Assembly (NCBI GenBank): GCA_028683835.1
Contig: JAQUHB010000001.1
Location: 1 to 64,000, forward strand
Length of the DNA: 64,000 nucleotides
DNA from: Sulfurimonadaceae bacterium
GTDB taxonomy: Bacteria > Campylobacterota > Campylobacteria > Campylobacterales > Sulfurimonadaceae
Reading direction: 5' to 3'
Shown: piece by piece, positions 36,059-53,740 of the stretch
How positions within the stretch are numbered: the stretch's first letter is position 1
Layout: each line of letters starts with the position of its first letter
The notes under the pieces: model-generated
Told to the model about the DNA's origin: nothing
What the model saw: only the letters and a program-made list of their open reading frames with translations
Databases searched by the model: none
Translations under genes and position numbers: made by a program

Positions 36059-38056
36059 TTACATTTTTAAGATATTTTTTTGTAGATTTTTAATGATTTC
36101 GAGTTGGCGATTTGATACATATGGAGAGAGTATCTCCTCAGTAGATGAAGTTACTTCAAGATGAACTACGAGAATAAATCTCTCAGTAAGCGGAATGATT
36201 TTAAGAATTTGTCCTCTATATAAATCCTCTTTATCGCTTAAATTGGCTGTGATTTCGATTTCATCGCCAATTTGAAGAGTATGGATATGTTGGAGGGAGA
36301 TTTCAAAGGTATTGATTGAAACAGATTGAAGTTGGCCATTAATTTTTTCTGATTCAAACGACAAAGAGACTTCAAGAGGTCGGTCTAGCTTCACATGTAC
36401 ATGTTTTCTATCAAGCGCTGATGATTCAACAGCTTGAAATAAGTGTAATGTTACATGATTTTCAAATTTATCTACTTTTTCAACGAAGGCCTTATAATCT
36501 GGTTTTTGTGGCATTTGTATATAAACGGGATCACCTTGATATAAAGAAAAAAGTGCTACTTTTCTTACCGTTACGATGAGTTGATTTTTGGTTATGAATA
36601 AAATAGTAGCATCAGATTTTATCCCTATTTCAAGATAATAATTGGTTACAGAAATCGTTCTTTTTTCTTGGTAATTAATTTTCATTAGTTGAAGAAATTT
36701 CTTTTCTTGCTCTAATCTAATTCTTTCTTTTTCTATGATGAGCGTTTCATCAACAATAGTTTCCAAAGAGTCCATTTTTACTTGTTCAAGTAAAAGGTCT
36801 GCTCGTGCCAACATAAGTTCGATAGTATCGTTTTTACGATGCACGACAATTGCCGCTAAAGGTTTAATCCTATCTTTACAATTATTTTCTTCTAAAAGTA
36901 AGTTGATTTTATTGATAATTTCTTGAGCATTATTTAGTTTTTTTTCTTTTAAAATGAGAGCAAAGCGCTCAAAATCAATTTTTGCAGAGTTGTCTTTATT
37001 ATCTTCTTTGAGTATATCAGAAATATTTTTAATCAGATCCTCTCCACTTTTTTTGTCATGAGTATCATTAAAAATTTTAAACCCCTCAAGATGAATCATT
37101 AAAATATTAAGTTCATCTTGAGAATGGGCTTGGAGTTGTTCTTGAACCATCTCTTTGAATTTTGTCAGATTAGCAAGATCTGTCAAGGGATCTAAAGCAA
37201 TGATGTTTTCTATTTTTTTTATCTTACGCTCTGTCTCTGAAAAGTTTTCAAGAGTAAAAATAAAATCATTAAGTTCATCGATTTTTTGTACATTTAAGGA
37301 CATCATTGAATGTTTATTTAGCTGATGATTGAAAAATTCTATCTCACATGCTCCTCCATTATTTTTAATAATCTGCATCAACCATTGATCATATTCTTTT
37401 CTTTTAAATAAATTTTCGTACATTGTAGTAGTTTCAATAAAATCTAAAGGATGAAAAAAACATTTTTGAAACTCTTTTGCATTTAGAACGCCTGTGGCAA
37501 GATAAAGGGGTTTATTTGCCAAAAAAAGTTTATTGTCATGAAGTTTAAAAATAATATTTTTTTGTGTATCTAAAATGATTTGAACTCTTTTAGCATATTT
37601 TATTAATTCAAGATTTGCCTGATTTTGTAGATTATATTCTAAAAGTTTTGCATCAAAATTTGCTAAAACACCAGAAAGATTTTCATCAAATAGATCTAAA
37701 ATTTTTATCATTATTTCAGATTTTTTGAATAAATCAGGATCATTTTTAGAGAGACTTTCTAAAATTGTTGAACGAAGTTGTGTACAGATGATAAAAATAT
37801 CTTGAGATTTTATATTTTTTTTGATCATATAATTGACAAACTGGTTCATGATATGACAAGTTCCAGGTAATTTATTTCCACGAAGTACATCAAGATTATA
37901 TAAAAGAATTGGATGAGCAAATTTTTTAGCAAATTGTGCATTATTAATTTTATGATCTAAAAAGTACTTTTGAACTATATCTTTATTAAGCCATGAATTA
38001 ACAAGGTCATATCTTTGCTCAATGAGCCAGATAACCATTTTTTCTAATTCATCCAA
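36059..38056 (-). CDS. Degenerate GGDEF protein with C-terminal PilZ-like region
   Basis: A 665-residue soluble protein. Residues about 1-145 are helical, similar in length to globin-like or RsbR-N sensor domains. A PAS-like part near 170-270 follows. Residues about 290-420 have GGDEF-domain spacing (DPLTDLANLTKFKEMVQ), but the active motif reads IDFERF, so it cannot make c-di-GMP. The last 200 residues have a YcgR-N/PilZ-like layout (GIKSDATILFITKNQLIV, RPLEVSLSFE), yet the PilZ motifs RxxxR and DxSxxG are not intact. It could be a c-di-GMP effector with lost contacts. It starts 9 bases after the DUF255 gene and precedes ppk2. Confidence 0.65.
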   Translation of the reverse strand: MDELEKMVIWLIEQRYDLVNSWLNKDIVQKYFLDHKINNAQFAKKFAHPILLYNLDVLRGNKLPGTCHIMNQFVNYMIKKNIKSQDIFIICTQLRSTILESLSKNDPDLFKKSEIMIKILDLFDENLSGVLANFDAKLLEYNLQNQANLELIKYAKRVQIILDTQKNIIFKLHDNKLFLANKPLYLATGVLNAKEFQKCFFHPLDFIETTTMYENLFKRKEYDQWLMQIIKNNGGACEIEFFNHQLNKHSMMSLNVQKIDELNDFIFTLENFSETERKIKKIENIIALDPLTDLANLTKFKEMVQEQLQAHSQDELNILMIHLEGFKIFNDTHDKKSGEDLIKNISDILKEDNKDNSAKIDFERFALILKEKKLNNAQEIINKINLLLEENNCKDRIKPLAAIVVHRKNDTIELMLARADLLLEQVKMDSLETIVDETLIIEKERIRLEQEKKFLQLMKINYQEKRTISVTNYYLEIGIKSDATILFITKNQLIVTVRKVALFSLYQGDPVYIQMPQKPDYKAFVEKVDKFENHVTLHLFQAVESSALDRKHVHVKLDRPLEVSLSFESEKINGQLQSVSINTFEISLQHIHTLQIGDEIEITANLSDKEDLYRGQILKIIPLTERFILVVHLEVTSSTEEILSPYVSNRQLEIIKNLQKNILKM

Positions 38057-40204: not shown

Positions 40205-41467
40205 TTAAAGTCGAAAATCAGTTTCTTCTTTTGGAAGTAAGCTTTTTAAATCTAATATAATACCAATGTCATTTCTTAAAAAACTTTTAATCGGAAGTAT
40301 TTTATAGGCTGTATGAGCAACTGTGATAATGATTGCATCATACTTTTTTGTTAGTAAATCTTCAATACAAAGAGTATTGATTCCATATACTCTAAGTATT
40401 TCTTCATGATCAGCGACGGGATCAAATAAATCTACTTGTTTCATTTTTGTATTTAATTTTGAAAAAATACTAGCACTTTGAGAATTTCGGATATCTGGGC
40501 AATTCTCTTTGAACGTGATACCAAGCATTAGTACTTCAGCATTTTTAGGTTCAATGTTAGATTCTTTTAGTAGGTCAATTGTAGTATTTACTACATAGTC
40601 TACCATTGTGCTATTGATGGACCTGGAAAGTTTGATCAATGGAAGATCAATACCACTTTTCTTTCCATTATAGAGCATATAATAGGGATCAATACTAATA
40701 CAATGTCCACCAACAAGACCCGGACGAAAAGGGATGAAATTCCATTTAGTCGCAGCAGCGTTAATAACATCGTTAGTATCTACGCCGAGAGAGTGAAAAA
40801 CTTTACTTAGTTCATTTATGAGAGCAATATTGACATCCCGTTGTATATTTTCTACGAGTTTAGATGCTTCTGCAGTCTTGATAGAAGGAGCAATATGAAG
40901 TCCGGCATGCACAATCTTTCCATATAAATCTTCCATGGTTTTAGTAACTTCTTGTGTTGAACCGGCGATAATTTTAACAACAGTATGGATAGTATGTTCT
41001 TTATCTGCGGGATTAATCCGCTCTGGGCTGAATCCAACGTAAAAATCTTGATTAAAGGTAAGAGTACTTTCTTTTACAAGAATTGGAACACAAAACTCTT
41101 CAGTACAGCCAATAAAAACAGTACTTTCATAGATAACAATATCTCCCTTTTTTAAAACAGAAGCGATACTCTTTGTTGCTTCTTCAACGGGAGAAAGATC
41201 TGGCATATTATCACTCTTTACAGGGGTAGGAACACTAACTATAAAAATAGTTGAATCCATCGCATCTGCAATATCTGAGGTAAATAAAATCCCATCTTTT
41301 TGTAATATTTCAGTGCTAAACGTCTCTGTACGGTCAAACCCTTTAGATAACTCTTCTGCATGAAGTCTTGATTTTGTGACAACTGTAACAGAAAAATAAT
41401 TTGCAAAAGCTACGGCTAGAGGAAGTCCCACATATCCTCCGCCAATAATACATATTTTTTTATTCAT
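40205..41467 (-). CDS. UDP-N-acetyl-hexosamine dehydrogenase, TviB/WbpO type
   Basis: Oxidises C6 of a UDP-N-acetylhexosamine to a uronic acid with NAD+. The 420-residue protein has the N-terminal NAD site GGGYVGLPLA, the middle YESTVFIGCTEE and FYVGFSPERINP, and the active-site cysteine in GGHCIS. Layout and many stretches resemble TviB of the Vi antigen locus. It is the last gene of the four-gene exopolysaccharide operon, 10 bases after the fusion protein. Its product, UDP-GlcNAcA or UDP-GalNAcA, would be a precursor of the polymer. Confidence 0.9.
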   Translation of the reverse strand: MNKKICIIGGGYVGLPLAVAFANYFSVTVVTKSRLHAEELSKGFDRTETFSTEILQKDGILFTSDIADAMDSTIFIVSVPTPVKSDNMPDLSPVEEATKSIASVLKKGDIVIYESTVFIGCTEEFCVPILVKESTLTFNQDFYVGFSPERINPADKEHTIHTVVKIIAGSTQEVTKTMEDLYGKIVHAGLHIAPSIKTAEASKLVENIQRDVNIALINELSKVFHSLGVDTNDVINAAATKWNFIPFRPGLVGGHCISIDPYYMLYNGKKSGIDLPLIKLSRSINSTMVDYVVNTTIDLLKESNIEPKNAEVLMLGITFKENCPDIRNSQSASIFSKLNTKMKQVDLFDPVADHEEILRVYGINTLCIEDLLTKKYDAIIITVAHTAYKILPIKSFLRNDIGIILDLKSLLPKEETDFRL

Positions 41468-41477
41468 AGGTTTCTTC

Positions 41478-44400
41478 TTAAAAACGGCGTGTTAAAAAGA
41501 GAGAAAAGTTTTTGCCTGTATAAGCATGATCATAAAATCGTGGAGTATAATCAAATGACGTACTTGCCTTTATCAGCCAGTCTCGATATAAACCAAAAAC
41601 TCCTTCTAAGGTTGCTGCACAACTTGGTTTGGTCTGATTTGCATAACTATCATTTATTGCTCCTGCTGAGAGCACCAGATTTACTCCGTCATTGTCACTT
41701 TTTTTCCAGTTTATATATCCTGAAAGATAATATTCTTGGATTAGTTTTGGTGAATAATAACCATGATCAGTATACTGTTTATCATATCCATAAAATTGAA
41801 CATCCGGACCAATATCAAAATTCCAATATTGTGTTCGTGATACTTGCCATGTAGGGTTTAATTCAACACTCCAACGCTGATTCGAATCAGATAGCGTATC
41901 ATATGTACCAGTTAAGTTGAGATTTGTTTTCATATTTGGTTCCCACAAAACTTTTAACTGTGTATAATCATCTCTAATGCCTCGTCCTATGGTACGTGGA
42001 GAAACAATATAATAGTCGTGTCCATGACTCAGATCCACTGATAACGTATTTAGAGGTGTCCATAATGCTCCAACTGAGTAAACAATATTATTGTTATCTT
42101 CCGCAGTTGCTCCCCCTAAAGTTGCACGAAGTTCTATATTTGGAGAAAATCTGTGGTTGACTCCAACTGTAGCACTTGTGTAATTAGCATTTTCTTGACC
42201 ATTATCCTGAGCAAAACCACTTTGTGTTGTCGCACGCAAATCATCCCATTTTATTTTAGCACTTAATCTTGTCAGAGGTGATAAAAAATATTCACCTTCG
42301 AGTGAGAGTGTGCGATCACTAACATCATATGAATCACTATAGTATTGAAAGCCAGCCGTCAGAGATGGGCGGAATTTAGTAGTTAAATACTTTTCTAAAA
42401 AGTTGTTTTCTTGTACGGCGTTTAAACGTAGATTTTTAACTGTTTGGAGCTCATCAATAGCCTCGATAGGTTGGAAATTATTATTATAGGCAACGGCTCT
42501 TGTATAGTGAGCATCATAATCATTTGGACTTTTTTGTAGTTTTGGATTAAGGATACTAAGAGCTTCGCGTGAACGATTTCCCCAGCTTAAGGCTTCTGCT
42601 TTTGTTTTTAAATAAGGCTCAGTCTCTCCAAATTTTTGTTTGTAAATGGATAAGGTTTCCATACTTTGGGCATATTTTCCAATCCAGGTTTGTACCTGAA
42701 TATATTCAATCCAAACTGCTTGATCTTCATTATGAGTTTGAAGATAGCGTTTAAAATCTTTATAAGCATCATCTAGTTGATTAGCCCATACATTTGCACG
42801 TGCAAGGATAAGTAGATTTTCATCTGTAGGCTCTAGCTGATAAATTTTATTGGCCGCATTTACTAAAATAAGTGGCGCATCAGCTTCACCTGCAATTTTC
42901 CATTGAGTTTTAAGATAGTTGATATTATCAGGCGAGAGCTTTACTGCTTCATTAATAGAGGACAATGCATTAGCATACTCCTTAGACATAGAAGACAACA
43001 TTGCCTTTCCATAAGCTTTTTCAGCATCATTAGGCTCAATCTTAGAGATAAAACTGTCTGCCGGTCTTAGTGGATTATTTATAGTGGAAACACCTTGACT
43101 TAGAGGATCAATTGCAGGTTTTGGTCCATAAATCAGAACTCGTGGAATATTAAATTGATTCATTCTTTCTAACTCTGCAACTCCACCAGTAGATGCAACT
43201 GCTGTAGTATAACCCAAAGAAGAAAGATCATTGTGCAAGGCTACCGCTCCATCTCCATCGCCATATGGATAGGCAAAGGATGTGATAGTAGATCCTGTAT
43301 TTGCCAAAATAGCAAGTTTTGAATATAAAAGCTCATAAATCTGATTTTGACTATCGATTGTGCTCATAAACGGGTGTGAATCTGAATGGCTTCCAATAGC
43401 CCATCCTGAAGCTATTAACTTATTGATCTCCGGCCAAGTAAGATAATAGGTGAGTGAGTTTTCAGCATTTTCCCCTAATTTGGTAATAGTACTATTTTTT
43501 CTATCCATATCATTGTTCCCAACAGCATCAGTAATAATATAGATTTGCGCAGAGTAGCCTTTACTTTTAAGTATCGGAAAAGCTTTTGTATAGATATTTT
43601 GACATCCATCATCAAATGTTATAATGACAGGCTTTGCAGGAAGATTTGCTTGGCCTAAAATAACTTTTCCTAAGGTATCCATGGTAATCGATTGATAGCC
43701 TTTACTGGCTAATTCATCTATTTGTCCTTTAAACTCTTTCGTTGCAATTGTATAAGTATTTGGTGACACATCATCAATACAGTGATACTCCAAGATTGGT
43801 ACCTTAATATCATTCAGAGAGTTATTATTTTTCAACTGAGCCGACATCGGTTCTTTTAGAAAATGTGTATAAGCTGTTTTAAGTGTATCATTTGCCTTTT
43901 TCACATCTCCGTTTGCTTCCTCAAGCTGAGCAAGAATTAACCAAATTTTTAAATTGTTCGGATTACGTTCAAGATATTTTTTATACAAAGAGATAGCATC
44001 AATATCTTTACCCGCCCATTCCAATGATTGAGAAAACAATAATATGAGATCCTCATTAGCCGGATCTAATGAAATTGCTTTTTTTAAGTCTGCCGTAGCT
44101 AGATCGGATTTTTTAAGCCAATTAGCAATTTTAGCATGTGCCACCAAGTAAGACACATTTTTAGGTTCTAATTTTAATACTTTATCCCAAATTGAAAGTG
44201 CTTTTTCAGGTTGATTCAAAACGGCATACACTGAAGCAAGACGAGTATAAAGTTCAATGCGTCTAGGCTCGACAGCAATTGCCCGACTTAGGACATCAGC
44301 TGCTTTATCATATTGTTTTTCTTTATTATAAATATCTGAGAGTCGTATATATAAATCAGTTTCCTGTGGCTTGTTAATAATTATTTTTTCATAAATACTT

Positions 44401-44516
44401 ATCGCTTCATTCCATTTTCCAGCCATCTCAGCTTTGAGTCCATCTTGTGGCACTCCTGCTGCTAGACCAATAGCACCAGTAAGTAATAATCCTGCGATTT
44501 GTTTCATTTTCTCCAT
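41478..44516 (-). CDS. TPR-polysaccharide deacetylase-TPR-outer membrane barrel fusion (PgaA/PgaB-like)
   Basis: A 1012-residue export protein. Signal peptide at 1-20; TPRs at about 25-225 (many EAIxIYEK-type repeats); a NodB-type deacetylase at about 238-455, with TFDDG at 300-304, HSDSHP at 377-382 and PYG at 417-419; more TPRs at about 495-700; a C-terminal beta-barrel of about 290 residues ending in a phenylalanine. In the E. coli poly-GlcNAc system the deacetylase (PgaB) and the TPR-porin (PgaA) are separate proteins; in Pel the equivalents are PelA and PelB. Here one protein would deacetylate the chain and pass it through the outer membrane. It overlaps the synthase gene by 13 bases. 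Confidence 0.9.
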   Translation of the reverse strand: MEKMKQIAGLLLTGAIGLAAGVPQDGLKAEMAGKWNEAISIYEKIIINKPQETDLYIRLSDIYNKEKQYDKAADVLSRAIAVEPRRIELYTRLASVYAVLNQPEKALSIWDKVLKLEPKNVSYLVAHAKIANWLKKSDLATADLKKAISLDPANEDLILLFSQSLEWAGKDIDAISLYKKYLERNPNNLKIWLILAQLEEANGDVKKANDTLKTAYTHFLKEPMSAQLKNNNSLNDIKVPILEYHCIDDVSPNTYTIATKEFKGQIDELASKGYQSITMDTLGKVILGQANLPAKPVIITFDDGCQNIYTKAFPILKSKGYSAQIYIITDAVGNNDMDRKNSTITKLGENAENSLTYYLTWPEINKLIASGWAIGSHSDSHPFMSTIDSQNQIYELLYSKLAILANTGSTITSFAYPYGDGDGAVALHNDLSSLGYTTAVASTGGVAELERMNQFNIPRVLIYGPKPAIDPLSQGVSTINNPLRPADSFISKIEPNDAEKAYGKAMLSSMSKEYANALSSINEAVKLSPDNINYLKTQWKIAGEADAPLILVNAANKIYQLEPTDENLLILARANVWANQLDDAYKDFKRYLQTHNEDQAVWIEYIQVQTWIGKYAQSMETLSIYKQKFGETEPYLKTKAEALSWGNRSREALSILNPKLQKSPNDYDAHYTRAVAYNNNFQPIEAIDELQTVKNLRLNAVQENNFLEKYLTTKFRPSLTAGFQYYSDSYDVSDRTLSLEGEYFLSPLTRLSAKIKWDDLRATTQSGFAQDNGQENANYTSATVGVNHRFSPNIELRATLGGATAEDNNNIVYSVGALWTPLNTLSVDLSHGHDYYIVSPRTIGRGIRDDYTQLKVLWEPNMKTNLNLTGTYDTLSDSNQRWSVELNPTWQVSRTQYWNFDIGPDVQFYGYDKQYTDHGYYSPKLIQEYYLSGYINWKKSDNDGVNLVLSAGAINDSYANQTKPSCAATLEGVFGLYRDWLIKASTSFDYTPRFYDHAYTGKNFSLFLTRRF

Positions 44517-45895
44517 CCTTTCTCACGAGTTATCCAAATATCAACAGCAAATCGTCCCATTGTGTACAGATCAAACATAATACTTGCATAACGCATAGGT
44601 GTGGCTAACCAACCTTTTATAAAATATTCAAGACGTTCCCCTTTATTACTGACTAAAGTCAGTAAAATAACGGAAATTACCGTTTCAATAGCAACCGTCA
44701 ATCCAAGCCACCACCACAATTTGAATATAACCAATATCAAAAGCGTAGTAGGAAAAAATGTTTTTTCAATCAGTGAAACAAAGATTACCCAGCCCATTGG
44801 ACGTCCATATTGTTGAGTAACTTTATCACCAAACTGTTGTCGATAAGGTTCTTGGATTTTGCGTAACTGTTGAATTTGTTCACTATGTTCTTTTTCCACT
44901 TTTTTATGATGAAGATAACTTGCAAATGATTTGAGAGGACTTCGAACCAACTCATCAAAATAGTAACAACTTTGAAAAAAGGACGAGGACCATAAATAAA
45001 TCTGTGCTGGAAGTTTTTCTGCTTCTGGTTCTTGTGAACGAGCGTAAACATCATTAAGCTGGACATTACGATAGCCATGTTTTAAAAGAGCAAAACCTAT
45101 GAAAATATCTTCAGAGTTAGTTAAGTCATCTCCTAAAATAGGCTCATATTGGTCAAAAAGATCCTTTACATATTTACGTCGATACGCAACCGCACATCCA
45201 ACTGGATTTGTGACAGATCCGAAAAAGACCATTTGTCCTTTGTATATAAATTTTTGTAAAAAAAGATAAAGAGACTCTCTATAAATATTACTGAGTTTAC
45301 GCATTAAAACATGAAAAAAGTTTTGTTTTTGTCGCAAATCTGCATCTGGGAATGTTTTTATAAATTGTTCTATCTGAGGTGTTTGAAGCATTTTTTCACG
45401 ATCTTTATCTCGTAATGGCATTATAGTACCACATACGCTGGCAATGCCAACAGCTTGATAGAGTTCCTGCACTGAGCGTTCAATATAATTAGAAGACTCA
45501 AGATAGGTGTCTCCATCGAGAATAAATTCGACATCTCCATCATACTCTCTTGCTTGGCGCTTGATTGTTGGTGTTTTACCGATAGAATGATCACGGCTAA
45601 TAATTGTAATTTCCATATCATTCGCAAGGGCAAAGGCCTTGGCATATTGTATAGTATTGTCTTTACTCCCATCATCAATAAGGATAATCCTATTTGGTTT
45701 GAGTGTTTGAGTAGCTAAAGAATTTAGGCATAAGATAATATTTTTTTCTTCGTTAAAAGCTGGAATAACAACATCTACTGTCGCTTCTCTCCAGTCTTCA
45801 GCAGGAGTGGGTTCTGTTTTGTCAGGTCCATGAAACATACCTATAACACTAAGAATAAGGTTCGGACTGAGGATAAAATATGGGGTTGCTGCCAT
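44504..45895 (-). CDS. GT2 polysaccharide synthase (PgaC-like)
   Basis: A processive-type glycosyltransferase at the inner membrane that would build the exopolysaccharide. The GT-A domain has DDG (substrate binding), DGD (metal), EDIFIG (catalytic-base region) and the QxxRW-like motif read as QIYLW, with Leu in place of Arg. C-terminal TM helices follow (about 370-440). The longest frame begins at 45949 and would overlap the epimerase by 53 bases; ATG at 45895 (MAATPYF) has AAAGGAGC at the right distance, giving 463 residues. No PgaD-like partner or c-di-GMP-binding PilZ domain is encoded in the operon. Confidence 0.88.
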   Translation of the reverse strand: MAATPYFILSPNLILSVIGMFHGPDKTEPTPAEDWREATVDVVIPAFNEEKNIILCLNSLATQTLKPNRIILIDDGSKDNTIQYAKAFALANDMEITIISRDHSIGKTPTIKRQAREYDGDVEFILDGDTYLESSNYIERSVQELYQAVGIASVCGTIMPLRDKDREKMLQTPQIEQFIKTFPDADLRQKQNFFHVLMRKLSNIYRESLYLFLQKFIYKGQMVFFGSVTNPVGCAVAYRRKYVKDLFDQYEPILGDDLTNSEDIFIGFALLKHGYRNVQLNDVYARSQEPEAEKLPAQIYLWSSSFFQSCYYFDELVRSPLKSFASYLHHKKVEKEHSEQIQQLRKIQEPYRQQFGDKVTQQYGRPMGWVIFVSLIEKTFFPTTLLILVIFKLWWWLGLTVAIETVISVILLTLVSNKGERLEYFIKGWLATPMRYASIMFDLYTMGRFAVDIWITREKGWRK

Positions 45896-45896
45896 T

Positions 45897-46874
45897 TTAG
45901 AGCTCCTTTGTTTGTTCACGTTGAATAAGATCTGTAAGAGTTTCTTCAAGTGTCCATTTTGGTGAATGGTTGGTGAGTCGTAGTAATTTTTCTAAGTTGG
46001 GTTTACGATGATAAATTTCATCAAAATCTTTGCCATATGCGTCTTCATAAGAGGTATAAGTAATGTTAGAAGAAGATTGTGCAAACTCTTTCGTTAGATA
46101 CGCTAATTGATTGATAGTGATCTCACGCGCGGTGCCTACATTGATAACTTCTGCACGGCTTAGGGGATTGTTAGAAAGTAGATCAAGATAGATGATTGCA
46201 TCTCTAACATCTAAAAAAGCACGCTGTTGTGTACCATCTCCGTATATAGTTATATCTTCTGCCCTTACCGCTTGGTGGACAAACCTAGGAACAACCATTC
46301 CGTATTTTCCAGTTTGGTTTGGACCTATAATATTGAAAAAACGAACGACAGTCACATCAATGTTATACTGACGAGCATAAGATAGAGCGAATGCTTCATC
46401 GGCAAGTTTACTTATGGAATAGTTCCAACGACTGTTATGTCCTGGACTAATATGTAGTTCCATATCTTCGCTCAAGAGCTCATATTCAAAGCGATTGCCA
46501 TACACTTCAGAACTAGAAGCGATAATTAGCTTCGTATTCCAGTCAGTACTGTGCACAACTCTTAAAAGACGTTCACATCCAGCAATATTAGTTGCCAACA
46601 CTGATATAGGTTCTTTTAAGACTCTAAAAACACCTACAACAGCAGCCAAATGATAGATCCTATCAGCCCAAGCTACAGCTTTTTCTAGTTCTTTCCATAC
46701 GAGTATATCAACTTCATCAAATTTAAAATTAAGATGTTCGAGAAATAAAGAAATATTTTCAATCCTACCTGTAGAAAGATCATCTATAACGTGAACCTTG
46801 TCACCTTTATTGATATGATAGGCCACTAAATTGGATCCAATGAATCCCGCACCACCAGTAATTAATACATGCAT
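45897..46874 (-). CDS. NAD-dependent sugar epimerase/dehydratase (extended SDR)
   Basis: An extended short-chain dehydrogenase acting on a nucleotide sugar, probably a UDP-hexose(amine) C4 epimerase or a UDP-glucuronate decarboxylase. GGAGFIGS (NAD), the SSSEVYG serine and YSISK catalytic Tyr/Lys are present. ATG at 46874 (MHVLITGG) gives 325 residues; the longer frame from 46913 adds 13 residues not expected in the family. First gene of the exopolysaccharide operon. Its role together with the TviB-like dehydrogenase suggests that an epimerised aminouronate is a unit of the polymer. Confidence 0.88.
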   Translation of the reverse strand: MHVLITGGAGFIGSNLVAYHINKGDKVHVIDDLSTGRIENISLFLEHLNFKFDEVDILVWKELEKAVAWADRIYHLAAVVGVFRVLKEPISVLATNIAGCERLLRVVHSTDWNTKLIIASSSEVYGNRFEYELLSEDMELHISPGHNSRWNYSISKLADEAFALSYARQYNIDVTVVRFFNIIGPNQTGKYGMVVPRFVHQAVRAEDITIYGDGTQQRAFLDVRDAIIYLDLLSNNPLSRAEVINVGTAREITINQLAYLTKEFAQSSSNITYTSYEDAYGKDFDEIYHRKPNLEKLLRLTNHSPKWTLEETLTDLIQREQTKEL

Positions 46875-49984: not shown

Positions 49985-50710
49985 TTATAAGTTACTGTTA
50001 CTAACAAACTCCGCAAACAGTTTTACATAGTTGTTTGAACTTTCTTCTTGAACTTTTTTAGCTAATTCTTTATCAACACGGTTATTGATAATCTTTTTGT
50101 ATGCAGCTTTTATCTCTTCTATGTCTTCACTGTTATTTAGTCTACGTCTAAGACCTATGATGTTAAGACCTTTGATTTTCGAGCGGTTTCCCTCGATCAG
50201 ACAAAACGGCGGGACGTCGTGGTTTACATAAGATGCTCCACCTATCATCACGCCTGTTCCGATATGATTATTTGCTTCTATCGTACTTAATCCGCCTATG
50301 ATAACACGCTCTTGGCATGTGACATTCTCATAGAGTCTTACAGCGTTTGTTAAAACACAGTTATTTGCAATTTTTACACCACTCATGATTTGAACATATG
50401 CCATGATAAAGTTATCATGACTGATATCTATATTTTCATTCTCTTCACTCTCTTGCGTGCCAATTTGAGCAAACTCACGTACATGTGTTCTTTCACCTAT
50501 ACGAATAACAGAGTTTTCATGACCGATCGTCGCAAAACTAAATAGCTTTACATCATCTTCTATAGTAACTTTCCCTTTCATGATAACATTTGAAGCGATG
50601 CTTACGTTTGCGCCGATAACACTCTCTTTACCGATAAAACAAAAAGGGCCTATAACAGCGCTTGAATCTATAATTGCGCCGTCTTCTATAATAGTTGTTT
50701 TATCTATCAT
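49985..50710 (-). CDS. LpxA-family acyltransferase lacking the catalytic histidine
   Basis: LpxA homologue, normally responsible for the first acylation of UDP-GlcNAc in lipid A synthesis. The 241-residue protein is a left-handed beta-helix with the C-terminal GLNIIGLRRRL helix typical of LpxA. Where LpxA proteins have AHIAHDC (catalytic His125 of E. coli), this reads VQIMSGV, with Gln107 and Ser110 at the two His positions; the usual PQDLKYKG loop is also shortened. Overlaps gnnA by 4 bases (ATGA). It may use the 3-amino sugar made by GnnA/GnnB with a different mechanism, have a separate role, or be inactive beside a canonical LpxA elsewhere. Confidence 0.8.
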   Translation of the reverse strand: MIDKTTIIEDGAIIDSSAVIGPFCFIGKESVIGANVSIASNVIMKGKVTIEDDVKLFSFATIGHENSVIRIGERTHVREFAQIGTQESEENENIDISHDNFIMAYVQIMSGVKIANNCVLTNAVRLYENVTCQERVIIGGLSTIEANNHIGTGVMIGGASYVNHDVPPFCLIEGNRSKIKGLNIIGLRRRLNNSEDIEEIKAAYKKIINNRVDKELAKKVQEESSNNYVKLFAEFVSNSNL

Positions 50711-51603
50711 GATTGGATTGCTATTTTTAAAGTGATGATACTGTCTTCTATGGTCGCCAAAGAACCGCGCTCACCCGTTTCTAAGTAGTTGATAAACATC
50801 TCAAGCTCTTTGATAAGCGGCTCATCTTTTTTGATATGGCATCCACGAACGACATAAGAGTTGTTTGTGCTAAATGCCGAGTATTCGGTGAGGCTTTGAG
50901 CGATAAGATCCGCTTCAAAATATGAGTCTTGACATGCCACTTCTATGCAACGTTTTTTAAACGGAGTGAGCCAATTGGTTGTGATATTTGCGATAACAGA
51001 ATCTGTAAGTTCGAAACTAAGGACTGCATTGTCTTCATGGTGATTATGGATCTTACGTGATTTAAAGATCGCCTGATCTAGGATATCTTTATGCGTAATA
51101 AAACGGATAAGGTCGATATCATGAACAGAAAGGTCAGTCAAAACGCCGACATCTGCGATGCGCGGAGGAAACGGTCCAACACGTGTTATAGCAACCGAGA
51201 AGATCTCTTTCCCTTCAAGTTCGTTTTTTAAAGCTTGAACGACAGGGTTAAATCTTTCAACATGCCCGACACAGCTTTTGATACCCGCTACTTCTACAGC
51301 TCTTAAAATCTCTTTTGCATCTTCGACAGTTGAAGCTGCCGGTTTTTCTATAAAGATATGCACACCTTTGGCCGCACATTTCAAAGCTACATCTTTGTGC
51401 AAAAATGTAGGAACAGCGATGATGACAGCATCTGGTTTTGCACTCTCTAACATCTCGTTTACATCATGGAAAAATGGCTCATTGTATGGATCATTTTGTA
51501 CAACGTCGCATAGCGCGCAGACTTCGACGTTATCGAGCATACTTAAAATGCGGTAATGGTTTTTTCCCATTGCTCCAAGACCGATGATTGCTACTTTCGT
51601 CAT
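50707..51603 (-). CDS. gnnA: Gfo/Idh/MocA oxidoreductase, GnnA-type
   Basis: NAD-dependent oxidoreductase, proposed to oxidise C3 of UDP-GlcNAc so that GnnB can aminate it, giving UDP-GlcNAc3N for amide-linked lipid A. The 298-residue protein has the Rossmann start IIGLGAMGKNHY and the catalytic lysine motif IEKPAA, then HVERFNPVV. The order lpxB-gnnB-gnnA-lpxA resembles that described for Acidithiobacillus ferrooxidans and Campylobacter. WbpB-type enzymes of O-antigen synthesis are an alternative, but the lpx neighbours favour GnnA. It follows gnnB by 2 bases. Confidence 0.85.
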   Translation of the reverse strand: MTKVAIIGLGAMGKNHYRILSMLDNVEVCALCDVVQNDPYNEPFFHDVNEMLESAKPDAVIIAVPTFLHKDVALKCAAKGVHIFIEKPAASTVEDAKEILRAVEVAGIKSCVGHVERFNPVVQALKNELEGKEIFSVAITRVGPFPPRIADVGVLTDLSVHDIDLIRFITHKDILDQAIFKSRKIHNHHEDNAVLSFELTDSVIANITTNWLTPFKKRCIEVACQDSYFEADLIAQSLTEYSAFSTNNSYVVRGCHIKKDEPLIKELEMFINYLETGERGSLATIEDSIITLKIAIQS

Positions 51604-51605
51604 GA

Positions 51606-52697
51606 TTATCCTTTGATCGCGTTTACTATAAATTCTTGTTGTTCGTTTGTAAGATATGGACTCATCGGAAGTGACATGATCTCCTCTGAGACTCTCTCAG
51701 AAATCGGGAAATCACCCGCTTTATATCCAAGATAGATAAACGCTTCTTGAAGATGCAGAGGCATCGGATAGTGCACAGCAGTCGGGATAGCTTGCTCACT
51801 TAATTTTGCAACCATTGATGCTCTGTCTTTTGTTCTTACAGAATATTGTGCATAAACGCTAGTGTTTTCATTTTCTATAAACGGAGTTACAACATCAGCA
51901 TCGGCAAGAAGTGTGGAATATCTTTGACCGATCTCTTGGCGCAGTTTGACCTCTTTGTCAAAATGGCGAAGTTTTACATCTAAAATAGCCGCTTGAACAG
52001 CGTCTAGACGGCCATTGATACCGATATATTTGTGTTTGTATCTTTCATTTTGTCCATGATTTAAGAGCATTCTCATTTTGCTTGCGAGCTCATCATCATC
52101 TGTGAATATCGCTCCGCCATCACCATAAGCACCAAGAGGTTTTGATGGGAAAAAGCTTGTACATCCTATAGTTGAAAGTGCGCAAGATTTTTTGCCTTTA
52201 TACTCAGCGCCAAAACTTTGACAAGCGTCTTCAATAACGACAAGATTGTGTTTATCAGCGATAGCATTGATCGCATCCATATCTGCACATTGGCCATAAA
52301 GAGAAACAGGAATGATCGCTTTTGTATTTTTCGTGATAACAGCTTCAATGCGTGAGGGATCAATATTATAAGTTTTTTCGTCAATATCTACAAAAACAGG
52401 TTTTGCACCTAAAAACGCGATCACTTCAGCAGTTGCGATGAAAGTAAAAGGAGTTGTAATGATTTCATCACCCGCTTTGATATCAAGTGCCATAAGAGCA
52501 AGTAAAAGTGCGTCTGTTCCGCTGCTGCAGCCAATAGCGTGTTTTACACCGGTATATGTTGCAAGGTTTTTTTCTAAACTATCAAGTTTTGGTCCGCCGA
52601 TGAATCCGGCACTTGCAAATACTTCACTTACTTCTTTATCTATCTCTGTTTTATACTCTTGATATTGTGCTTGCAAATCTATAAAATTGATCTTCAT
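51606..52697 (-). CDS. gnnB: DegT-family aminotransferase, GnnB-type
   Basis: PLP aminotransferase of 363 residues. GCSSGTDALLLAL, EDACQSFGAEY and the PLP lysine in FFPSKPLGAYGDGG are typical. GnnB transfers an amino group to the 3-keto sugar from GnnA. Start and lpxB stop overlap as TAATG. The result is UDP-2-acetamido-3-amino-2,3-dideoxyglucose, which makes acyl groups of lipid A amide-linked instead of ester-linked, a form resistant to alkaline hydrolysis. Confidence 0.87.
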   Translation of the reverse strand: MKINFIDLQAQYQEYKTEIDKEVSEVFASAGFIGGPKLDSLEKNLATYTGVKHAIGCSSGTDALLLALMALDIKAGDEIITTPFTFIATAEVIAFLGAKPVFVDIDEKTYNIDPSRIEAVITKNTKAIIPVSLYGQCADMDAINAIADKHNLVVIEDACQSFGAEYKGKKSCALSTIGCTSFFPSKPLGAYGDGGAIFTDDDELASKMRMLLNHGQNERYKHKYIGINGRLDAVQAAILDVKLRHFDKEVKLRQEIGQRYSTLLADADVVTPFIENENTSVYAQYSVRTKDRASMVAKLSEQAIPTAVHYPMPLHLQEAFIYLGYKAGDFPISERVSEEIMSLPMSPYLTNEQQEFIVNAIKG

Positions 52698-53740
52698 TAT
52701 TTATCCTCTATGATGGCTGCTACGGTCTTTGAACTTCCGTGGCTTAGGTAATTTCGTAATTCTTTTGAATTGTTTAAAAATTTCACTCTGTCAAACTTTT
52801 GATAAGCTTCAAAAAGGTTCTGTGCTGTGACATCCTTTTGAATGAATTCAGGATGTAAAGCCTCCTCTTTAAACTTGTCAAACATAATGTTGCTAAGTCC
52901 TATGTAGTCTAGTTTCACAAGTCGGCTTGCTATAAAATAGTCAAGCGGTTTTGCGATATAGCTCAGTATAAAAGGAACGCCAATGAGTGCAGCTTCCAAA
53001 GTAGCCGTTCCGCTACAGATAAAAGCAAAGTCACATTCACGCAAAGTTTGATGTGCGTCATAAACAATTTTAAATTCTGATAGGGTACCGTAAACTTCAT
53101 TTAACTCTTCTTTAGAAAACTGTTTTGGAACGATAATATACGCCTCACAGTCGAGTTTTTTTCGAAGTTCTCTAAAAATGGGCATCAATTTTTTGATCTC
53201 GCCTCGACGACTTCCTGGCATAAATGCTATTTTATTTGTATTTGTTACTTCCTCTTTAAACTCTTTGATTTCATCTAAAAGAGGATGCCCAACATAAGTA
53301 ATAGGTGCATTTTTGGAATAATAGCTTTTCTCAAACGGCAAGATCGAAGCAAGATGTGTAATTGTTTTTTCTAAAACAGGAATTCGCTTTTGTTTCCAAG
53401 CCCAAGCCTGTGGAAGGATGTAGTAGATGATCTCTTTGTCCGGGTATTTTTTGCGTATCTTTTTGGCAAGGGGGAGGTTGAAACCTGAAGAATCCATAAG
53501 TAAAATCTTGTCGCAATCACGCGCAAGGGAGACCATCTCATCGCTAAGTTTGAAAAAATATCTGAGTTTTTTTATGGCATCGACAAACCCCATAATTGCC
53601 AAAGAGGAAAGATCGACTAAGGGAGAACCAAGCTCTTTATCAAAGATTCCAACAAGTTCAACATCTGAACTAAGTTCTTGTTTAAGGGCTTTTAAGTGGA
53701 TATTTGAAGAGTGTTCGAGCGCGCTGACAAGAAGTTTCAA
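52697..53740 (-). CDS. lpxB: Lipid A disaccharide synthase
   Basis: Joins UDP-2,3-diacylglucosamine (or its 3-amino form) with lipid X to form the lipid A disaccharide. The 347-residue GT-B fold protein has YYILPQAWAWKQKRI, the PGSRRGEIKKLMPIF loop and SGTATLEAALIGVPFILSY. Shorter than the E. coli protein (382). First gene of the lpxB-gnnB-gnnA-lpxA unit, divergent from the dihydroorotase-like gene. Confidence 0.95.
   Translation of the reverse strand: MKLLVSALEHSSNIHLKALKQELSSDVELVGIFDKELGSPLVDLSSLAIMGFVDAIKKLRYFFKLSDEMVSLARDCDKILLMDSSGFNLPLAKKIRKKYPDKEIIYYILPQAWAWKQKRIPVLEKTITHLASILPFEKSYYSKNAPITYVGHPLLDEIKEFKEEVTNTNKIAFMPGSRRGEIKKLMPIFRELRKKLDCEAYIIVPKQFSKEELNEVYGTLSEFKIVYDAHQTLRECDFAFICSGTATLEAALIGVPFILSYIAKPLDYFIASRLVKLDYIGLSNIMFDKFKEEALHPEFIQKDVTAQNLFEAYQKFDRVKFLNNSKELRNYLSHGSSKTVAAIIEDK

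Follow-up and report, generated by a model that had tools for sequence, protein, structure and literature searches.

A candidate exopolysaccharide exporter of Sulfurimonadaceae joins a PgaB-type deacetylase and a PgaA-type barrel in one chain

Does a single protein of this Sulfurimonadaceae bacterium both modify a polysaccharide in the periplasm and export it? The window (the whole stretch of 64,000 nucleotides that was analysed) contains a minus-strand ORF (41478..44516) of 1012 aa, from an ATG start to the stop after ...LTRRF. An earlier note had described a signal peptide, TPRs, a NodB deacetylase, further TPRs and a barrel in this one frame, and the ORF together with the Pfam and NCBIfam matches bears this out. 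Its domains and the three neighbouring genes of the cassette share this strand. Residues 1 to ~22 (44451..44516) are a signal peptide, read from the sequence, that lacks a lipobox Cys, and the homologues also have a hydrophobic N-terminus. TPR block 1 (residues 26-225; 43842..44441) is matched by Pfam TPR families at residues 31-216 and by positions 100-233 of the PgaA model TIGR03939. It is followed by a PgaB/IcaB-type NodB deacetylase domain (residues ~240-467; 43116..43799). TPR block 2 (residues ~490-700; 42417..43049) adjoins the barrel, with a TIGR03939 match at 42237-42821 and a Pfam TPR_20 match at residues 653-692. The C-terminal part (residues ~712-1012; 41478..42383) is assigned to the PgaA-type outer-membrane beta-barrels and ends in Phe. 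With a probability of about 0.72, the fusion and its three neighbours form a four-gene synthase-dependent exopolysaccharide cassette, in which the periplasmic modification enzyme and the outer-membrane exporter are one protein. The catalysis, outer-membrane location and polymer of the fusion we infer from sequence.

A sequencing error near residues 460-500 could have joined two genes into this frame, and this was rejected. Two further genera of the family, represented by G014 and G183, have full-length homologues with 43% identity; these are uninterrupted ORFs of 1009-1030 aa that align end to end, which rules out a sequencing join. Along the gene, GC is even, both overall and at third positions. 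Among the intact fusions, conservation is highest in TPR block 1 (47-54% identity) and the deacetylase (46-55%), followed by TPR block 2 (39-51%), and lowest in the barrel (36-45%). Between congeners, the barrel is under purifying selection (dN/dS ~0.11), as are the neighbouring SDR (~0.09) and dehydrogenase (~0.13) genes.

The deacetylase domain resembles the PgaB N-deacetylase family in being a NodB domain and in its catalytic His, Asp and metal ligands. Pfam Polysacc_deac_1 (PF01522) is matched at residues 291-438 (E 4.7e-22), the NCBIfam PgaB and IcaB models score 78.8 and 52 bits, and hhalign aligns the domain with E. coli PgaB at E 8e-17. The PgaB score is below the equivalog cut-off (78.8 versus 321.9 bits) and covers only profile positions 5-144 of 621; the GH153 glycosidase domain of PgaB is absent from the fusion. 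The motifs that had been called intact are all present: YHC (H245), TFDDG (D302/D303), HSDSH (H377/H381) and YPYG (416-419). In the alignment, H245, D302, D303, H377 and H381 correspond to E. coli PgaB H55, D114, D115, H184 and H189, whose roles we assume from general knowledge of PgaB. These catalytic residues are kept in all three intact fusions. The D114A variant of Bordetella has been reported to lack deacetylase activity (PMC5933820).

The predicted C-terminal barrel is related to the PgaA barrel, distantly but significantly, as judged from profile comparisons. Pfam PF21197 (PgaA_barrel) is matched at residues 839-925 with E 1.8e-4 and 21.2 bits, just below the 27-bit cut-off; in a congeneric metagenome-assembled genome, the corresponding barrel (91% identity) exceeds it at 27.4 bits. 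TIGR03939 positions 555-723 match the barrel alone at E 2.5e-8 in one genome. When the barrel family was compared with E. coli PgaA by hhalign (E 3e-5), the 177 aligned columns all lay within the PgaA barrel (609-792) and included the SDSNQR and YYxP motifs. PF21197 is specific, since only E. coli was matched among 14 control genomes and only the cassette loci among 15 relatives. The fusion scores below the full-length TIGR03939 equivalog cut-off (82.5 versus 366.65 bits, mostly from TPRs), and a simple strand scan of the barrel was no better than for shuffled sequence (18 versus 15.8, fraction 0.22). AlphaFold gave pLDDT 31-33 for the full chain and the barrel, from alignments of 1-2 sequences only. 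The earlier proposal of a C-terminal barrel is supported by homology through PF21197, TIGR03939 and hhalign, and the comparison with PgaA and PgaB by both hhalign alignments.

The fusion lies in a tight operon, not described in the earlier note, with the order NDP-sugar SDR, GT2, fusion and TviB/WecC-class dehydrogenase. The epimerase/decarboxylase-like SDR (45897..46874; longest ORF from 46913, conserved start at 46874) has UDP-glucuronate decarboxylase as its nearest solved structure and keeps the SEVYG and Arg positions of that enzyme, but reaches no equivalog cut-off (TviC 102.6 versus 760 bits). The GT2 family glycosyltransferase (44504..45895; longest ORF from a TTG at 45949, conserved ATG start at 45895) is the putative synthase and overlaps the fusion by 13 bases. 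The NDP-sugar 6-dehydrogenase (40205..41467) starts 10 bases downstream of the fusion and is of the UDP-HexNAc (TviB/WecC) class, with a TviB score of 398.9 against a cut-off of 592 bits. The GT2 is far below the PgaC and NodC cut-offs; against PgaC it reaches ~50 of 422.3 bits, over only ~100 aligned residues. It has no full QxxRW, with QIYLW, EIYLW, EIYMW or ELYMW at the equivalent place, and hydropathy predicts 2 membrane helices. Because of this degenerate motif and the few predicted helices, the GT2 may be non-processive.

In all three genera with an intact fusion, the GT2 gene is directly upstream and the dehydrogenase gene directly downstream. G183 shares all four genes and their order with the window, and the G014 contig, which carries GT2, fusion and dehydrogenase, begins just before the GT2. 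The flanking genes vary from one genus to another, and the cassette thus behaves as a unit. Its domain content and gene order would fit the general plan of synthase-dependent exopolysaccharide systems, that is a synthase, a periplasmic modifier and a TPR/barrel exporter in one operon. Named systems fit less well. The cassette has neither a PgaC synthase with QxxRW nor PgaD, as in the pgaABCD (PNAG) operon, and its scores are below the TviB and TviC equivalog cut-offs for a sugar pathway of Vi-antigen type. The Pel synthase is a GT4 enzyme, and no PelF (GT4), PelG, PelC or PelD is encoded in the cassette, which consists of SDR, GT2, fusion and dehydrogenase only. No co-polymerase, PilZ partner or PgaD is encoded beside the GT2. 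In a promoter and terminator scan of the operon, the matches were no more numerous than in shuffled sequence.

Two other loci of the window were noted. A gene for a 665-residue GGDEF protein (36059-38056) lies downstream of the cassette in the same orientation, after the gene of a DsbH-like protein, and is not found beside the cassette in the other genera. At 49985-53740, an LpxA-like acyltransferase, a Gfo/Idh oxidoreductase, a DegT aminotransferase and LpxB are encoded consecutively, which resembles GnnA/GnnB-type 2,3-diaminoglucose lipid A synthesis.

The cassette is rare. In a census of 228 genomes of the family, 3 intact fusions, 1 broken copy and 1 barrel-only form were found, and no further cassettes were found among 397 phylum and 399 order genomes sampled, two samples that overlap. 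The only match in a pattern scan of genome contigs was the congeneric copy. A plasmid or phage origin was considered and rejected: neither plasmids nor phages gave a full-length match to the fusion, the GT2 had no good plasmid match, and its matches in viral contigs had only 37-38% identity over ~100 residues. Stand-alone NodB relatives in other Campylobacterota were also rejected as the unfused ancestor, being located in unrelated glycosyltransferase clusters and not near a barrel or a cassette GT2.

The broken copy is in a congener, G002, which shares the chromosomal neighbourhood of the window at 89-91% nucleotide identity. Here the fusion is split between contigs C127 and C50, and the GT2 carries a frameshift. 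The copy ends in non-homologous sequence near the contig ends (L079 5672-5767; L034 1-30 and 1867-1950). The breakage may be decay or an assembly error.

The barrel-only form is in G516 (C131; L073 8730-12072), where SDR and GT2 are followed by a 332-residue protein consisting of a signal peptide and a barrel with 29% identity to that of the fusion over 300 residues (E 3e-34). No TPR, NodB or adjacent dehydrogenase is encoded at this locus; a dehydrogenase of the same class is located elsewhere in the genome. Judged by sequence and gene order, G516 shows that the barrel is a domain in its own right and goes with the cassette GT2. GT2 and barrel therefore appear to be the constant core, and TPR-NodB-TPR an optional module. 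The G516 GT2 is closest to that of the fusion-bearing G183 (73.8% identity), and the barrel-only form may thus have arisen by loss, although the SDR identities (66.2% for G516-G183, 67.4% for G183-window) do not clearly repeat this grouping.

Could the fusion simply belong to a PNAG system? The genome of the window (G000) carries pgaB-pgaC-pgaD elsewhere (G000:C66; L032 4039-7811) without an adjoining pgaA, and no PgaA-type barrel other than the fusion was found in it. If the fusion were the missing PgaA of this operon, it would export poly-GlcNAc. This is unlikely, because G014, G183 and G516 carry the cassette but no full-length PgaB, which indicates that the cassette is independent of PgaB, and because the GT2 of the cassette is unlike PgaC. 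The converse is also seen, in that many relatives with a PgaB-like protein have neither a PgaA barrel nor a cassette. Eight genomes (G001, G021, G035, G361, G362, G367, G372 and G395) encode a NodB protein of PgaB length and no PgaA-type barrel genome-wide, and G000 and these relatives possibly have a PNAG operon without its known porin.

Peptidoglycan and glycolipids are further substrates of NodB enzymes. The fusion might accordingly N-deacetylate another glycan near the outer membrane, such as peptidoglycan or lipopolysaccharide sugars, with the barrel as a mere anchor, and the best-scoring Campylobacterota NodB relatives (~270 aa, with an N-terminal hydrophobic anchor) do sit in large glycosyltransferase clusters. 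We consider this slightly less probable still than a role in PNAG export, for three reasons. The likeness of the barrel is to PgaA in particular and not to anchors in general; polymer exporters have this arrangement of TPRs and barrel; and in three genera the gene is firmly linked to a GT2 and a dehydrogenase of its own. Least probable of all is that the gene is a degenerate, non-functional leftover of horizontal transfer. The patchy distribution (intact in 3/228 family genomes) and the fragmented G002 copy with its frameshifted GT2 would agree with this. In contrast, intact ORFs of 1012-1030 aa, catalytic residues conserved at 43% identity and dN/dS of ~0.1 argue for function, and the G002 breaks adjoin contig ends of a metagenome assembly and may be assembly errors.

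A single-chain modification and export protein is consistent with what is known of the two-protein systems. In E. coli, the deacetylase domain of PgaB becomes 2.3-fold more active when bound by the porin-proximal TPRs of PgaA, and purified PgaA and PgaB form no stable complex on mixing (PMC9384988). In the Pel system, PelA is held by TPRs 9-14 of PelB and modification is functionally coupled to export; contact between porin TPRs and modifying enzymes is described as a common feature (PMC12022489). PelA and PelB are separate proteins, and the Pel system has a CE21 deacetylase, a GH166 hydrolase and a PelC ring, none of which is encoded in the cassette. The fusion shares with PgaA (TIGR03939 / PF21197; TCDB 1.B.55) the signal peptide, the periplasmic TPR superhelix and the C-terminal barrel with SDSNQR and YYxP, but PgaA has no enzyme domain, whereas the superhelix of the fusion is interrupted by a whole NodB domain. 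With PgaB (TIGR03938) and IcaB (TIGR03933) it shares the circularly permuted NodB with the N-terminal catalytic His, TFDDG and HxxxH; it differs in having no GH153 or lipoprotein anchor and in carrying NodB inside an exporter. The fusion is best read as the non-covalent PgaA-PgaB contact of E. coli made covalent, and the comparison supports the view that such a version would make mechanistic sense.

The earlier note knew of no named system with NodB and a PgaA barrel in one protein, and none turned up in searches of the open-access literature. In the passages covered, a survey of operons for synthase-dependent systems names BcsZC and GT-PgaB fusions and mentions none of PgaA-PgaB type (PMC7112194). 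BcsZC of Zymomonas, as described there, is a precedent in principle, in which a modification enzyme (a cellulose hydrolase) is fused to a TPR exporter, the outer-membrane pore. It differs in that the enzyme domain is unrelated, a hydrolase instead of a deacetylase, and the polymer is cellulose instead of an amino-sugar polymer.

If the cassette works as proposed, the TviB/WecC-class dehydrogenase and the SDR would produce an uncommon NDP-sugar, with UDP-HexNAc as the most likely precursor, and the membrane GT2 would polymerise N-acetylated sugars into a chain that crosses the inner membrane. The chain would then enter the TPR solenoid and pass the NodB domain, whose homology is plain and whose predicted activity would remove some of the N-acetyl groups. 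The hydrolysis would be metal-dependent, with H245 as acid, D302 as base and D303/H377/H381 as metal ligands. The resulting cationic chain would move through the second TPR block and the PgaA-type barrel to the outside. Between an inner and a porin-proximal TPR block, the deacetylase would sit at the place predicted by the PgaA and Pel models, giving a single-chain modify-and-export device. Because the parts are one chain, the deacetylase to pore ratio would always be 1:1, and a separate PgaB-like lipoprotein or glycosidase would be unneeded.

The polymer is probably not ordinary PNAG, because the cassette has a GT2 other than PgaC and lacks the glycosidase domain of PgaB. Given the dehydrogenase and SDR classes, a plausible sugar is a HexNAc derivative of uronic or pentosamine type. 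More tentatively, and at somewhat less than even odds, the cassettes may be a separate synthase-dependent class that makes an undescribed, partly de-N-acetylated amino-sugar polymer (e.g. containing GlcNAc-uronate or a 2-acetamido-pentose) and has a modular exporter, with the deacetylation module built in (G000, G014, G183) or omitted (G516).

Studies of the handover of PNAG and Pel chains from deacetylase to porin have relied on complexes that are difficult to isolate. The fusion resembles a known biofilm export machine made in one piece by nature; for the same task, E. coli and Pseudomonas use two proteins joined by contact only. With stoichiometry and geometry set by the single chain, the fusion may lend itself to solving the structure of the periplasmic path as a whole. 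Through the barrel-only variant, export could be compared between natural systems that have the deacetylation module and one that lacks it. As a Rosetta stone, the fusion also adds independent evidence for a functional meaning of the contact between PgaA TPRs and the PgaB deacetylase.
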